This document shows, piece by piece, positions 1 to 6,484 of a stretch of 36,305 nucleotides of DNA. The notes beneath the pieces were generated by a model, which was not told the DNA's origin, made no database searches, and saw nothing but the letters and a program-made list of their open reading frames with translations. Within the stretch, counting starts at the first letter, position 1. Every line of letters starts with the position of its first letter. Both the position numbers and the translations under genes were made by a program. This DNA is from an uncultured SAR86 cluster bacterium (GTDB lineage Bacteria > Pseudomonadota > Gammaproteobacteria > Magnimaribacterales > D2472): contig CACELG010000003.1 of assembly GCA_902560315.1 (NCBI GenBank), forward strand, positions 1 to 36,305, written 5' to 3'.

Positions 1-287
1 GCTGTAGCAGCATCATCTACTGCACTTGGAGGAGATGACTGATTAAAATGGAGATCCAAAGCTTCTAATAACTTTGCTTTAGTTAGATTTATGTCTAAAT
101 CAAGTCCATTTTCTTTAGCAACATCTACTATATCTGCTTTTTTCATTTTGTTTAAAGCAGATTTTGTTGGTAATTCAACAGAATCTTGAGGTTTAGTTAC
201 TTCATTTTCTGTTTCTTTAGGCGCACTTAATCCTCCAAATAAACGGGAAAAAAAGCCTTTTTTCTTACTATCTTTGCTATCACTCAT
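1..287 (-). CDS. Partial unrecognised protein with basic N-terminus and SAP/Rho-N-like helical motif
   Basis: This is the first 95 codons of a gene that runs off the left edge; the ATG is at 287-285. The N-terminus is Lys/Ser-rich, followed by a GFFSRLFGG stretch and a polar linker. At roughly residues 46-79 lies a helix-loop-helix segment (MKKADIVDVAKENGLDLD, then LTKAKLLEALDLHF) that resembles SAP, HeH or Rho-N nucleic-acid-binding modules. A Ser/Pro/Ala-rich linker follows up to the edge. It starts 19 bases after the trmD stop, so it is probably co-transcribed with rpsP-rimM-trmD. In most relatives this slot holds rplS, but the visible part does not resemble an ordinary L19 N-terminus. It could be an N-terminally extended L19, an FtsY-like protein with an amphipathic N-terminus, or something unrelated. 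I do not assign a function. Confidence 0.7.
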   Translation of the reverse strand, partial: MSDSKDSKKKGFFSRLFGGLSAPKETENEVTKPQDSVELPTKSALNKMKKADIVDVAKENGLDLDINLTKAKLLEALDLHFNQSSPPSAVDDAAT

Positions 288-1040: not shown

Positions 1041-1559
1041 TTAGTAATCACTTTCCCAGTCTACTTTTACTAATCTGTTTTCTTTATCAATTGATGTTAT
1101 AAAAGTTTGTTTTATAAAAGGGATTAATCTTTCTTTGTTATCTATTGATTTGGTTGAAGGTTTTACTATTAAACAATCATTTGAACCAAAGTTATTTAAT
1201 CCTTCAATTATGCCTAATATTTCATTTTTATTTATATTTACAACAAGCATTCCAACCAGATCATGCCAATAGGTCTCATTTGAAGAGAGTAAAGGTAAAT
1301 CATTCGATGAAATATAAAGTTTAATATTTGTATATTCTTTAATTTCATCTAAATCATTTACATTTTTGATTTTTGCATGAAATTTAGTATTGTTTTTTTT
1401 AATATACTCAAAGCTAAGCTTTATATCCTTAGTCTGGATGTTATCGATATATTTAAGAATATTTTCTCTTGGATTACAAAAAGAATTTAGAAAAAACTCT
1501 CCCTTTAAACCTCTAGGTTTTCCAATGTTTCCAATGCAAACTAACTTACTTTTTTTCAT
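1041..1559 (-). CDS. rimM: Ribosome maturation factor RimM
   Basis: RimM binds ribosomal protein S19 in the head of the 30S subunit and assists 16S rRNA processing and late 30S assembly. At 172 residues it has normal length. The N-terminal beta-barrel opens with the family motif [15 protein letters not shown] (about residues 9-23). The PRC-barrel-like C-terminal half contains [11 protein letters not shown] (about 97-107) and the ending [11 protein letters not shown]...RLVKVDWE. Its ATG lies inside the 3' end of rpsP (14-base overlap), which suggests translational coupling with S16, its assembly neighbour. Downstream trmD starts 2 bases after its stop. Confidence 0.96.
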
Positions 1560-2151
1560 CTTCTGAAGAGTCTTTTTCTTCAGACTCTTCTTCTGCTGGG
1601 GCTTCCTCTTCTGCTGGGGCTTCTTCTTCTGCAGGAGCTTCCTCTTCTGCTGGGGCTTCTTCTTCAGCTGGAGCTTCCTCTTCTGCTGGAGCTTCCTCTT
1701 CTGCAGGAGCTTCTTCTTCAGCTGGAGCTTCCTCTTCTGCTGGAGCTTCCTCTTCTGCTGGGGCTTCCTCTTCTGCAGGAGCTTCTTCTACTTGAGCATC
1801 ACTAGCAGCTTGTTCCTCAGCTTCTTTTGCTAATTTTTCTGCTAAAGCAGCTTTTTTTGCATTAGCTTTCGCTTTTTTTGCTTCAACCTTTGCTGCAAAT
1901 TCTTCTGGTGTTAAATTAGCCTCTTTTACTAAAGCACCTACTCTATCACTAACTTGAGCGCCTTTTGATTTCCATTCTTCTATCTTATTTAAATCTATTC
2001 TTAATCTTTCTTCTTGACCTTTAGCTGAAGGATTAAAAAAACCAAGTCTCTCAATAAATGAGCCGTCTCTTGGACGTCTTTCATCTGCAACAGTGATAAA
2101 ATAATATGGATTCTTTTTTGAACCACTTCTAGCCAATCTAATAATTACCAT
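1546..2151 (-). CDS. rpsP: Ribosomal protein bS16 with long repetitive acidic C-terminal tail
   Basis: Residues 1-80 are a normal bS16 core ([19 protein letters not shown], then [14 protein letters not shown]), a small-subunit protein that binds 16S rRNA early in 30S assembly. The usual length is about 80-90 residues; this one has 201. After the core comes a Lys/Ala-rich helix (about 84-116), then eleven tandem EEEAPA-type hexapeptides (about 120-188), then an acidic Ser/Asp/Glu/Lys end. The tail is strongly negative and predicted disordered, so it should extend off the ribosome surface. The 3' end overlaps rimM by 14 bases. It is the first gene of the rpsP-rimM-trmD operon and is divergent from the ypjD-like gene. 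The S16 identity is certain; a function for the tail is not known. Confidence 0.96.
1595..1792 (-). repeat. Eleven-copy 18-bp in-frame minisatellite in rpsP
   Basis: Eleven contiguous 18-bp units, each encoding the hexapeptide EEEAPA on the minus strand, make up 198 bp of the rpsP tail. Units differ only at synonymous positions (gctggg, gctgga or gcagga at the start; cct/ttc and tct/tca variants at the end), and the last unit diverges at its edge. The order of variants is patchy: two identical units, one different, two identical again. This suggests multi-unit duplication rather than only unit-by-unit slippage. The array keeps the reading frame whatever the copy number, so length could vary freely between strains. 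Confidence 0.95.
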
Positions 2152-2253
2152 AGTAAAAATATTTAAATTTGTTTAAAAAGATGTGTATTTTAGGGTAACC
2201 TTGCTAATATTGATAGTATTATTATGCAAAGTTTTAATTAATCTTTATATTTA
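2152..2253. promoter_or_regulatory. Divergent promoter region between rpsP and the ypjD-like gene
   Basis: This 102-bp AT-rich gap separates divergent operons and must serve both. For the plus strand, ttgata at 2210-2215 with tttaat at 2233-2238 (17-bp spacing) is a possible sigma70 pair that would leave a very short leader. For the minus strand, TTGCAT at 2229-2224 is the best -35 candidate, but no good -10 sits at the right distance. No Shine-Dalgarno is visible before the plus-strand ATG at 2254. Placement of individual boxes is tentative; the assignment as a promoter region rests mainly on gene orientation. Confidence 0.45.
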
Positions 2254-2820
2254 ATGAGTTTTATTACCCAAGTAACTATAAGTATAGTTATTTATTTTAT
2301 TATTAGATTCTTCTACCAGAAAGAAAGATCCCTTTATGTTTCTTTATATGTCTCAGCTTTTTCATATATTTTAATTTATTTGTTAACTTATGAAGTTATT
2401 ACTATATTGCCAACAATTCATTTTATGGTGACTGGGTTGAGTTTATTGTTCATATTTATTGCATATAATGAAATTCTAATCCTTGAAAGAAAGGTGAGAA
2501 AAATTAAACTTGGTGATTTAGCAAGTATTGAGCCATTTTCAATAGAAAGAAACTATAAAATAGTATTTAAACTATTGGGGATGGGACTTTTATTTCTATC
2601 CCTAGCTTTAATTTCAGGTCTTAGTATGCAGTCTATTTTTACAGCAAATTTAATATTCAAAGCGGTTTTTACTTTTATAGCTTGGTTAATATTTGTTATA
2701 ACAGTTCTTGGTGTGAAATATTTTAATTTTCCAATTAAATATGGCACGAGGAGTCTTTTTATAGCAATGTGGGCTGTATTGGGGGCTTATTTTATGAATT
2801 CTTACATAATTGGATCGTAA
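2254..2820 (+). CDS. ypjD: YpjD/CorE-like inner-membrane protein (CcsA/HemX superfamily), short form
   Basis: A 188-residue integral membrane protein with about six hydrophobic segments. Its C-terminal two thirds follow the E. coli YpjD (CorE) pattern: a transmembrane segment beginning IHFMVTGLSLL (about residues 50-60), a cytoplasmic loop with PFSIERNYKIVF (about 93-104), then three membrane helices including ISGLSMQSIF and KAVFTFIAW. The family is related to the cytochrome c assembly protein CcsA/HemX, but the haem-handling WGxxWxWD signature is not seen. E. coli YpjD is about 263 residues, so this one lacks roughly 70 N-terminal residues or has a reduced N-terminus. It overlaps the next gene by one base (TAATG), and the pairing with a CorB-like gene matches E. 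coli ypjD-yfjD. A role in magnesium/cobalt homeostasis is inferred from that pairing. Confidence 0.8.
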   Translation: MSFITQVTISIVIYFIIRFFYQKERSLYVSLYVSAFSYILIYLLTYEVITILPTIHFMVTGLSLLFIFIAYNEILILERKVRKIKLGDLASIEPFSIERNYKIVFKLLGMGLLFLSLALISGLSMQSIFTANLIFKAVFTFIAWLIFVITVLGVKYFNFPIKYGTRSLFIAMWAVLGAYFMNSYIIGS

Positions 2821-4085
2821 TGTTAGAAGATCCCTCTTTGATATTTTTACTTTCAATACTAATATCTTTATTAATTATTAGTGGCTTCTTTTCTGGCTCT
2901 GAAACAGGGATGATGGCCGCTAATAAAATTAAGCTTAGGAATTTATCAAAAAAATCAAAAACAAGTGCTAAAAGAGCTCTAAATCTTTTAAAAAGACCAG
3001 ACCAATTATTATCTGCAATATTGGTAGGAAATAATTTTGCTAATATTTTAGCTTCGGCAATTGTTACGATAATTATGATTAATTATTTTGGAGGTAATGT
3101 TTTGGTCGGTTCAATTATACTAACCATAATAATTCTAATTTTCTCAGAAATTACACCAAAAACCATGGCTACTATAAAGCCCGAAAGTTTTGCTACAAGA
3201 TCATCTTTTATACTTAATATTCTAATCTATTTGTTTAAACCAATAATATTTTTTACTAATTTCTTAAGCAGATTAATTCTTAAAATATTTAAATTAGATG
3301 CTAAAGATGCAACGTTAAACGATAGTCTTAATACTGAAGAGCTTAAAACATTACTTGAAGAGTCGGGAGATCTTATTCCAAAACAATATAGAAAAATGCT
3401 CTCTTCTGTTCTAGGTATGGAAGAACTTGTAGTTGAAGATATTATGATTCCTACTTCTGAAATAATTGGTATAAACATTAATAAAAATTATCAAAATGCT
3501 ACGAAAATTATTGAATCTACTGAATATACTAGATTGCCAGTTTATGAAGATACAATTGATAATATGATTGGTGTTCTTCATTTAAAAGATTCTCATTCAT
3601 TCTTAGAAAGTTTTAGTAAAAAAAATCAAGATTATAAAAAGATACTTCAAAAAACATATTTTGTATCTCAATCTACTCTGTTAATGAAACAACTTAGAGA
3701 GTTTCTTTCAAGCAATCAAAGTTTAGGTTTGGTTGTAGACGAATATGGAGAAATAGAGGGTTTAATATCTGTTGAAGATATTTTTAAAGAAATAACTGGA
3801 ACTTTTGGCGGAGATAAGGAAGAGTTAGAAAAAGAATTTACTAAGTTAAAAGATGGATCGATATTAACTGATGGAAATTCAAAAATTAGAGAACTAAATA
3901 ATTATTTAAACTGGAGAATTCCTGAAGAAAATGCAAAAACCATTAATGGTCTTGTTACTGAATATCTTGATCAAATTCCCCAAGCAAACCTATGTATAGA
4001 AATAGAAGATTATCAATTTGAATTATTGGAGCTTGATGAAAATTCCATATCTAAGATAAGAATCAAAAAAAAGCATCTGAAGTGA
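2820..4085 (+). CDS. corB: CorB/YfjD-like CNNM transporter-type protein (DUF21-CBS-CBS-CorC_HlyC)
   Basis: This 421-residue protein has the CNNM/CorB architecture. It has an N-terminal DUF21 membrane domain (about residues 5-160) with the hallmark FFSGSETGMMAANK, then an acidic helical linker. A tandem CBS pair follows (about 195-330), including VEDIMIPTSEI and VVDEYGEIEGLISVEDIF. The C-terminal CorC_HlyC domain covers about 335-421. CorB homologues are linked to Mg2+/Co2+ transport with Mg-ATP binding in the CBS module. I chose the ATG at 2820 because it overlaps the upstream TAA stop and places DUF21 at the right distance; an in-frame ATG at 2769 lies inside ypjD and would add a non-family extension. 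It converges on the PuuD-like gene with a 14-bp gap and no visible terminator. Confidence 0.92.
   Translation: MLEDPSLIFLLSILISLLIISGFFSGSETGMMAANKIKLRNLSKKSKTSAKRALNLLKRPDQLLSAILVGNNFANILASAIVTIIMINYFGGNVLVGSIILTIIILIFSEITPKTMATIKPESFATRSSFILNILIYLFKPIIFFTNFLSRLILKIFKLDAKDATLNDSLNTEELKTLLEESGDLIPKQYRKMLSSVLGMEELVVEDIMIPTSEIIGININKNYQNATKIIESTEYTRLPVYEDTIDNMIGVLHLKDSHSFLESFSKKNQDYKKILQKTYFVSQSTLLMKQLREFLSSNQSLGLVVDEYGEIEGLISVEDIFKEITGTFGGDKEELEKEFTKLKDGSILTDGNSKIRELNNYLNWRIPEENAKTINGLVTEYLDQIPQANLCIEIEDYQFELLELDENSISKIRIKKKHLK

Positions 4086-4837: not shown

Positions 4838-6484
<1,647 letters not shown>

Follow-up and report, generated by a model that had tools for sequence, protein, structure and literature searches.

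An acidic, minisatellite-encoded C-terminal tail on ribosomal protein bS16 across the SAR86 order

Few proteins are considered to be as constrained as those of the ribosome. Low-complexity tails rich in Ala and Glu have been surveyed on bacterial S16, S2 and L25, and also on S6 and L19, and the accessible part of that survey places S16 among the proteins with the most such regions (PMC6821194). In the actinobacteria C. acnes and M. smegmatis, the available portions of the structural reports describe a C-terminal bS16 extension of about 60 to 75 residues that includes a short helix; in the protein presented here, a helix is predicted. Bacteroidetes bS16 proteins of similar length are also known, with 188 aa in Flavobacterium johnsoniae (7jil) and 192 aa in P. 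gingivalis (9i5v), of which 85/188 and 118/192 residues, respectively, are modelled in the structures.

The rpsP locus and the anatomy of its tail

The window, that is, the whole stretch of 36,305 bp analysed here, begins at the first base of contig C3, in a 1.08 Mb genome assembled in 19 contigs. This genome is SAR86-like, its nearest named relatives in a Pfam S16 scan (best 80 loci) being SAR86 single-cell and metagenome genomes; SAR86 are abundant bacteria of the ocean. The operon rpsP-rimM-trmD-rplS is present, with a partial rplS, and the features of the region are the following.

1..287, minus strand: 5' part of rplS (bL19), encoding an N-terminal arm with a GFF motif, truncated by the contig start
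307..1038, minus strand: trmD (PF01746)
1041..1559, minus strand: rimM (PF01782, PF24986), with a 14-bp overlap with rpsP
1546..2151 including the stop codon, minus strand: rpsP, ribosomal protein bS16, 201 aa (ORF list, PF00886, TIGR00002)
1549..1593, minus strand: acidic end of bS16, 15 residues, partly common to many relatives; its last codons hold the rimM start
1594..1791, minus strand: minisatellite of 11 x 18 bp (VEEAPA and ten EEEAPA), residues 121-186, predicted disordered
1786..1908, minus strand: basic Ala/Lys linker, residues 82-122, predicted helix; pLDDT per block falls from 91 to 73
1912..2151, minus strand: S16 core, residues 1-80; Pfam match at residues 8-68, AlphaFold2 pLDDT 87-97 per ten-residue block
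2152..2253, no strand: interval separating rpsP from the ypjD-like gene, the ffh position in E. coli
2254..2820, plus strand: gene for a ypjD-like membrane protein, assigned from its position and a weak similarity, without a Pfam match
2769..4085, plus strand: corB/yfjD-like gene (CNNM, CBS, CorC_HlyC), start as listed mechanically

The rpsP ORF scored 76.8 bits against PF00886 (cut-off 27) and 80.8 bits against TIGR00002 (cut-off 45.3), and Tandem Repeats Finder placed an array at 1589-1789 with a period of 18, 11.2 copies, 88% matches and no indels. These results bear out the first-pass annotation in describing an in-frame 18-bp tandem array inside an S16 ORF, with a core of about 80 residues followed by about 120 extra residues. 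Its count of eleven units was also right, although not all are EEEAPA, the first being VEEAPA; the span it assigned to the protein and its tail (1546-1792) needs correction to the gene and unit coordinates listed above. The partial rplS gave no Pfam match by itself and was named through its match to a relative (L291). The overlap between rpsP and rimM is claimed for the window only, because a pattern for it as a conserved feature split 111 loci into 37 overlaps, 37 gaps and 37 undecided cases. Elsewhere in the window, a 9-bp repeat at 4844-4873 corresponds to the Gly-Met end of GroEL and is ordinary.

The array has a GC content of 0.556 (taken at 1592-1789) against 0.315 for the window, and 54 of its 66 residues are Ala or Glu, which exceeds the 70% Ala plus Glu used here to assign a C-terminal stretch to the kind surveyed in PMC6821194. 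Among the ten EEEAPA units, the variable columns are 6, 12, 15 and 18, and all four are third-position synonymous. The earlier suggestion that the synonymous variants are arranged in blocks, implying recent duplication, was not confirmed: the lag identities of the window units fell within those of shuffled unit orders, and the longest exact repeat, of 50 nt, was attained by 92 of 1000 shuffles, so that the signal for recent block duplication does not exceed chance in the window. At lag 2, a two-unit pattern was detected in the arrays of L028 and L054 (0.012 and 0.042 of shuffles, uncorrected for the four lags tested per array) and was not seen in L061, the third other array tested. A second copy of the array was not found in the window genome; the acidic stretch expected in rplS would lie past the start of the contig, and it did not turn up anywhere else.

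An AlphaFold2 model of the window S16 (51 aligned sequences) was confident for the core and for the helix at residues 82-122, with pLDDT below 50 over most of residues 127-194; on repeats, low pLDDT is weak evidence of disorder. The predicted core matched S16 of many ribosomes in Foldseek. No amphipathic signal was obtained for residues 121-190, where the hydrophobic moment was below that of shuffles, and that of the linker (residues 81-126) was not above shuffles.

A predicted helix directly after the core would fit a brace like that of Actinobacteria, in which the extension binds uS4 and offsets a short 16S helix 17; S16 extensions touch uS4 in Cutibacterium and Mycobacterium, as described in the available portions of PMC10085706, PMC5876184 and PMC6133939. 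The V3 region, which holds helix 17, argues against this explanation, as it measured 174 nt in 11 of 12 16S loci of the SAR86 order, the same as in E. coli (174 nt), with the twelfth locus (L242) unmatched by the primer patterns. Compensation for a short helix 17 was thus rejected, and we regard the brace as very unlikely. Because the published extensions reach uS4, this contact is still a likely path for the first part of the arm.

Presence, turnover and possible role of the tail across the SAR86 order

A Pfam S16 search gave a match in 31 of 34 genomes of the genus and in 155 of 203 of the order, and further loci came from the scan of named genomes (best 80 loci). Among the matches listed, we distinguished 154 SAR86-type S16 proteins, 111 with a stop codon and 43 cut by a contig end. 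At least 134 aa were present in 110 of these 111, the remaining one having 101 aa, whereas S16 is 81-86 aa long at nine outgroup loci, from Halomonas, Aliamphritea and further gammaproteobacteria. The 111 proteins comprise 81 with intact Glu/Ala/Pro tails, 21 with amphipathic tails, eight broken or irregular ones and one without a tail; intact tails thus number 102 of 111 among the matches listed. In the 81 intact Glu/Ala/Pro tails, the protein length ranges from 135 to 299 aa and the median net charge is -25 (range, -78 to -1), and Phe, Trp and Tyr are absent beyond residue 120 in 81 of 81. The tail had been considered odd in a streamlined genome; this oddness is weakened because the tail is order-wide and because PMC6821194, in the part available to us, describes S16 tails of the acidic Ala/Glu kind as common among bacteria.

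The eight broken or irregular proteins and the tail-less one (L138) are counted in the 111 and excluded from the 81. Six have a shifted or N-filled frame (L002, L069, L087, L122, L135 and L222) and two are irregular, L083 having an early stop and L094 lying on a contig whose downstream part looks foreign; L030/L086 lacks its first residues, at a contig start. In L002, L069, L135 and L222, the acidic array is frameshifted and the repeat continues in a different reading frame, consistent with an error of sequencing or assembly. In L138, from a one-contig genome (G039), S16 ends at 101 aa, the start of the linker is kept, the acidic array is absent and rimM comes next; hence, loss of the acidic part can occur.

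The nearest relative, AG-325-P20 (L031, whose protein is identical to L028 of G012), carries 15 units, one EEESPA and fourteen EEEAPA, compared with 11 in the window. This agrees with the earlier proposal of a repeat-built, acidic tail whose copy number varies without frameshift. The two genomes are identical at 231/240 positions of the core DNA, 116/120 of the linker and 480/500 of the 500 nt past the stop, and the best in-register match between their arrays is 0.878. A constant copy number across relatives, which the first-pass annotation had set against a variable repeat, was not seen; repeat unit and tail length both vary among them. In four hexapeptide arrays, whose selection pattern was biased towards similar units, 17 of 21 codon changes were synonymous (4/4 in the window; all four nonsynonymous changes are in L054), the expected synonymous share being 12 of the 54 single changes of a unit. 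Recent duplication might account for part of this predominance of synonymous changes.

Contig ends were located within 600 bp downstream of codon 80 in 38 of 104 distinct loci among the matches listed (the window's own included), versus 4 of 104 within 600 bp upstream of the start in the same set (Fisher p 2e-9); therefore, short reads often fail to resolve S16 arrays. The same asymmetry would favour the view that the length or even the existence of the array is an assembly artefact. We consider this highly improbable, given that the S16 frame closes inside the contig in 68 of the 104 loci (36 are cut within the frame), that closed frames occur alike in single-cell, metagenome and one-contig genomes, and that their ends are mostly conserved. 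By a crude sorting rule, contig ends cut 1 of 22 amphipathic tails versus 42 of 132 Glu/Ala/Pro tails; after moving L153, which is amphipathic by its start, the cuts were 2/23 versus 41/131 (Fisher p 0.025). As arrays break short-read assemblies, public genomes often contain a truncated copy of the gene.

We propose, with intermediate confidence, that the C-terminal arm of bS16 is a disordered polyanionic arm of the ribosome that is held by composition and not by length. A basic helix (residues 82-122) would leave the S16 core and be followed by a disordered polyanionic stretch arising from the in-frame minisatellite, and then by a short acidic end that contains the rimM start. Gain, loss and exchange of units would alter the tail length without breaking the frame, and selection would keep the composition (Glu/Ala/Pro, net negative, with an acidic part free of aromatics) and not the length or the exact sequence. 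The arm would probably extend outwards from the 30S body, on its solvent side, and may serve as an electrostatic and entropic spacer or as a weak docking surface on the ribosome. This role, the display on ribosomes and the selection on charge are inferred, while the analysis directly shows the anatomy of the tail, its presence throughout the order, its turnover, the predominance of synonymous changes and the existence of comparable arms on other ribosomal proteins. The tail-less S16 of L138 and the near-neutral charge of some tails (net -1) count against this reading.

The spread of lengths among the 81 intact tails and the turnover of units, along with a single natural loss and several assembled tails whose frame is broken, could also result from neutral growth, in which the exposed S16 C-terminus tolerates low complexity made by slippage and weak selection removes frame breaks and aggregation-prone residues. 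We judge this to be unlikely, yet deserving serious consideration: in an order of compact genomes, 110 of the 111 stop-containing genes among the matches listed have kept a tail, two genera keep a conserved alternative tail of near-fixed length, and the composition is acidic almost throughout. An arm maintained for its composition is the reading that we prefer.

The ffh position and arms on bL19, bS6 and S16

In E. coli, the gene order is rplS-trmD-rimM-rpsP-ffh, followed by the divergent ypjD and yfjD. In the window, ffh is absent, and the ypjD-like and corB/yfjD-like genes stand beyond rpsP. Using the GTPase part of E. coli FtsY as a query, an SRP-type GTPase was found upstream of rpsP in 9 of 9 outgroup loci and in 0 of 100 distinct SAR86 loci, among the matches listed, whose upstream sequence spans 700 bp or more; in these 100 loci, the corB-like gene was present in 100 and the ypjD-like gene in 71. 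Genome-wide, FtsY was above the cut-off in 0 of 9 genomes of the order (controls, 14/14), and the SRP54 GTPase in 6 of 202 (controls, 14/14). Five of these six matches scored about 21-25 bits, compared with 255.8 for E. coli Ffh. The sixth, L320 (G156:C34, 240 bits), is an FtsY and the only strong match of the order; its contig is likely an archaeal contaminant, because the neighbouring ORFs look archaeal. The bacterial small SRP RNA (4.5S) was detected in 0 of 14 genomes, with controls found in 11 of 14. From the missing GTPases and the SRP RNA searches, we think that the order lacks SRP; the genomes are incomplete, and several are single-contig. YidC is present in 12 of 12 genomes. A basic C-terminal tail of YidC was considered as an alternative ribosome anchor and discarded, as none was observed in the 11 of 12 loci that were well read (for L343, another frame was read).

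A second acidic arm is encoded in the same operon. When the acidic tail of the window was used as a query in eight genomes (E <=0.1), matches were obtained in four, in rpsP, and G012 and G026 showed one further match, in a gene that is rplS (L19) by its place after trmD and by Pfam. This search was blunt, and rpsP itself was missed in the other four genomes, three of which have other tail types. Two relatives illustrate the arm.

L291, 1147-2040: bL19 with an N-terminal arm
L292, 1195-2019: bL19 with an N-terminal arm

In the family of the window (f1), the N-terminal arm of bL19 often consists of a GFF motif and a helix-pair region, then an acidic stretch, and finally the L19 core; in many genomes, the acidic stretch is built from the S16 units. 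The helix-pair region looks like a SAP-type helix pair and gave no Pfam match. The GFF motif (KKKGFFSRLF-like, at the arm start) is present in 33 of 50 distinct long bL19 arms and absent in 17. The L19 proteins read in f2 and f4 loci have about 115-117 aa (132 aa in L162, by start choice), and no long arm was found in the two f3 loci or in the two f4 genomes read. The contig of the window starts inside rplS, a few residues before the array position of AG-325-P20, so a second array in rplS probably ended it. Exchange of arrays between rpsP and rplS was not retained as a result: among near relatives, the 18-mer similarity was 0.098 within and 0.033 between genomes, a value that 0 of 2000 permutations reached, but it is suggestive only, because the permutations ignore kinship and the rpsP array ranked its own rplS partner first in only 6 of 24 genomes.

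The S16 tails of genera g14 and g12 (family f2; L141-L152 and L154-L161) are not of the Glu/Ala/Pro type. Complete g14 proteins have 349-353 aa in 13 of 14 cases and 347 aa in the other, and g12 proteins have 325 aa in 6 of 6 read. An amphipathic pattern extends over about 200 residues of these tails; the hydrophobic moment peaks at 97-98 degrees, the angle that a repeat of 11 residues in three turns should give, with z values of 12.8 and 9.9 versus shuffles (one protein per genus); the tail of L146 is acidic (82 Asp/Glu versus 21 Lys/Arg). Phasin_2 scored 32.1-37.7 bits (cut-off 24.9) in three of three g12/g14 proteins, and Rv1893 (47.3; cut-off 27) and Senescence (26.4; cut-off 24.6) in one of three, matches that are weak because such repeats score by composition; the Apolipoprotein profile was below its cut-off in these tails. 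AlphaFold2 drew helices in the amphipathic tail with block pLDDT of about 28-44, and this model was not used as evidence. An internal ATG is conserved in the g12/g14 genes with GAGGA seven bases upstream, and the GAG codon of this motif is kept in 14/14 g14 and 5/6 g12 sequences, which are closely related and hence not independent witnesses; elsewhere in the g14 and g12 S16 genes, GAG accounts for 10% and 11.6% of Glu codons, respectively. This pattern in the sequences suggests that the amphipathic part may also be made separately, as a nested second protein. In f1, the lineage of L084 and L088 has a short amphipathic-like tail without the internal start.

Ribosomal protein bS6 of g14 also carries long amphipathic repeats (L254:1492-2181; L256:925-1722; L305-L307), with moment peaks at 98-100 degrees and z values from 4.8 to 10 in 5 of 5 tails tested; two g14 contigs end within the bS6 gene (L304 and L308). 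The z value of the bS6 tail was 1.1 in the window genome and 0.2 in one g12 genome. Most other lineages read have Lys/Glu-rich acidic bS6 tails, and in the two f4 genomes read bS6 has no tail, the f4 S6 frames among the matches listed having 95-110 aa.

The loss of ffh beside rpsP and the near-empty searches for FtsY, the SRP54 GTPase and 4.5S RNA raise a different explanation, that the arms on bS16, bL19 and bS6 might answer the loss of SRP by helping to hold or steer ribosomes near the membrane or its partners. The GFF motif of the bL19 arms resembles that of E. coli FtsY, MAKEKKRGFFSWLGF, which is likewise joined to an acidic domain, and the amphipathic helices on S16 in two genera and on S6 in one would point in the same direction. 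Against it, the S16 array of the window and the S6 tail of its genome lack an amphipathic signal, f4 has neither a bL19 arm in the two genomes read nor a long S6 among the matches listed even though SRP parts were not found there either, the GFF motif is missing from a third of the long bL19 arms (17/50), and YidC has no basic tail in the 11 loci that were well read. S16 is not located at the ribosome exit tunnel, and other phyla with S16 tails, Actinobacteria and Bacteroidetes, have SRP. We therefore find this explanation doubtful. Mitochondrial ribosomes are stably attached to the membrane, and an extended version, which is at least as doubtful, would view SAR86 as a free-living order without SRP whose ribosomes compensate by means of acidic bS16 and bL19 spacers, an FtsY-like GFF tip on the bL19 arm and, in some genera, amphipathic bS16 and bS6 helices; the task of targeting would have passed from a shuttling particle to the ribosome itself, as in mitochondria, and the S16 tail would have arisen beside the lost ffh. 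The link between the S16 tail and SRP is correlative and concerns the root of a single order. Coping with SRP loss through a change in the translation machinery has a precedent, since E. coli can lose SRP if mutations in initiation factors, in S3 or in the S10 leader slow translation down; the available portions of these reports contain no mention of S16 or rplS (PMC7844537, PMC8299109).

Comparison with known systems

Searches of the open-access literature yielded no publication that deals with the ribosomal tails of SAR86 or with a loss of SRP in this group. Acidic Ala/Glu tails on S16, L19 and S6 were already described, as far as the accessible part of PMC6821194 goes; the turnover of the minisatellite, the second acidic arm on bL19, the amphipathic replacement on S16 with its internal start, and the absence of ffh beside rpsP and of SRP parts in the genomes searched appear to be new to us. 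Here, in cells that are abundant at the ocean surface, a member of a constrained protein class carries a segment with the turnover of a minisatellite. The tail lengths of some hundred species, the replacement in two genera and the single loss make the role of the acidic tail testable by comparison, and, if the SRP loss holds, the rpsP locus would mark a rare exception to a near-universal pathway.

The bL19 arm shares with the N-terminal acidic domain of FtsY a short basic GFF motif and a long acidic stretch; it differs in being fused to L19, while the FtsY domain is fused to a GTPase, and the likeness is not a feature of S16. Common descent of the two is not demonstrable because of their low complexity. 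By their sequence, the GFF motif on bL19 and the amphipathic helices on S16 (g12 and g14) and S6 (g14) are putative membrane-binding elements. Regarding S16 itself, the tailed Flavobacterium protein is mostly unresolved in its structure, and it is similar to that of SAR86 in length. The available accounts of the actinobacterial bS16 describe no hexapeptide array and tie the extension to a short helix 17, which is not the case in SAR86. The closest likeness is to the tails of PMC6821194, which, in the portion of the survey available, are also C-terminal, rich in Ala and Glu and found on S16 above all, with L19 and S6 listed as well; the SAR86 tails differ in the order-wide 18-bp minisatellite that changes between relatives, in the bL19 stretch and in the amphipathic replacement.
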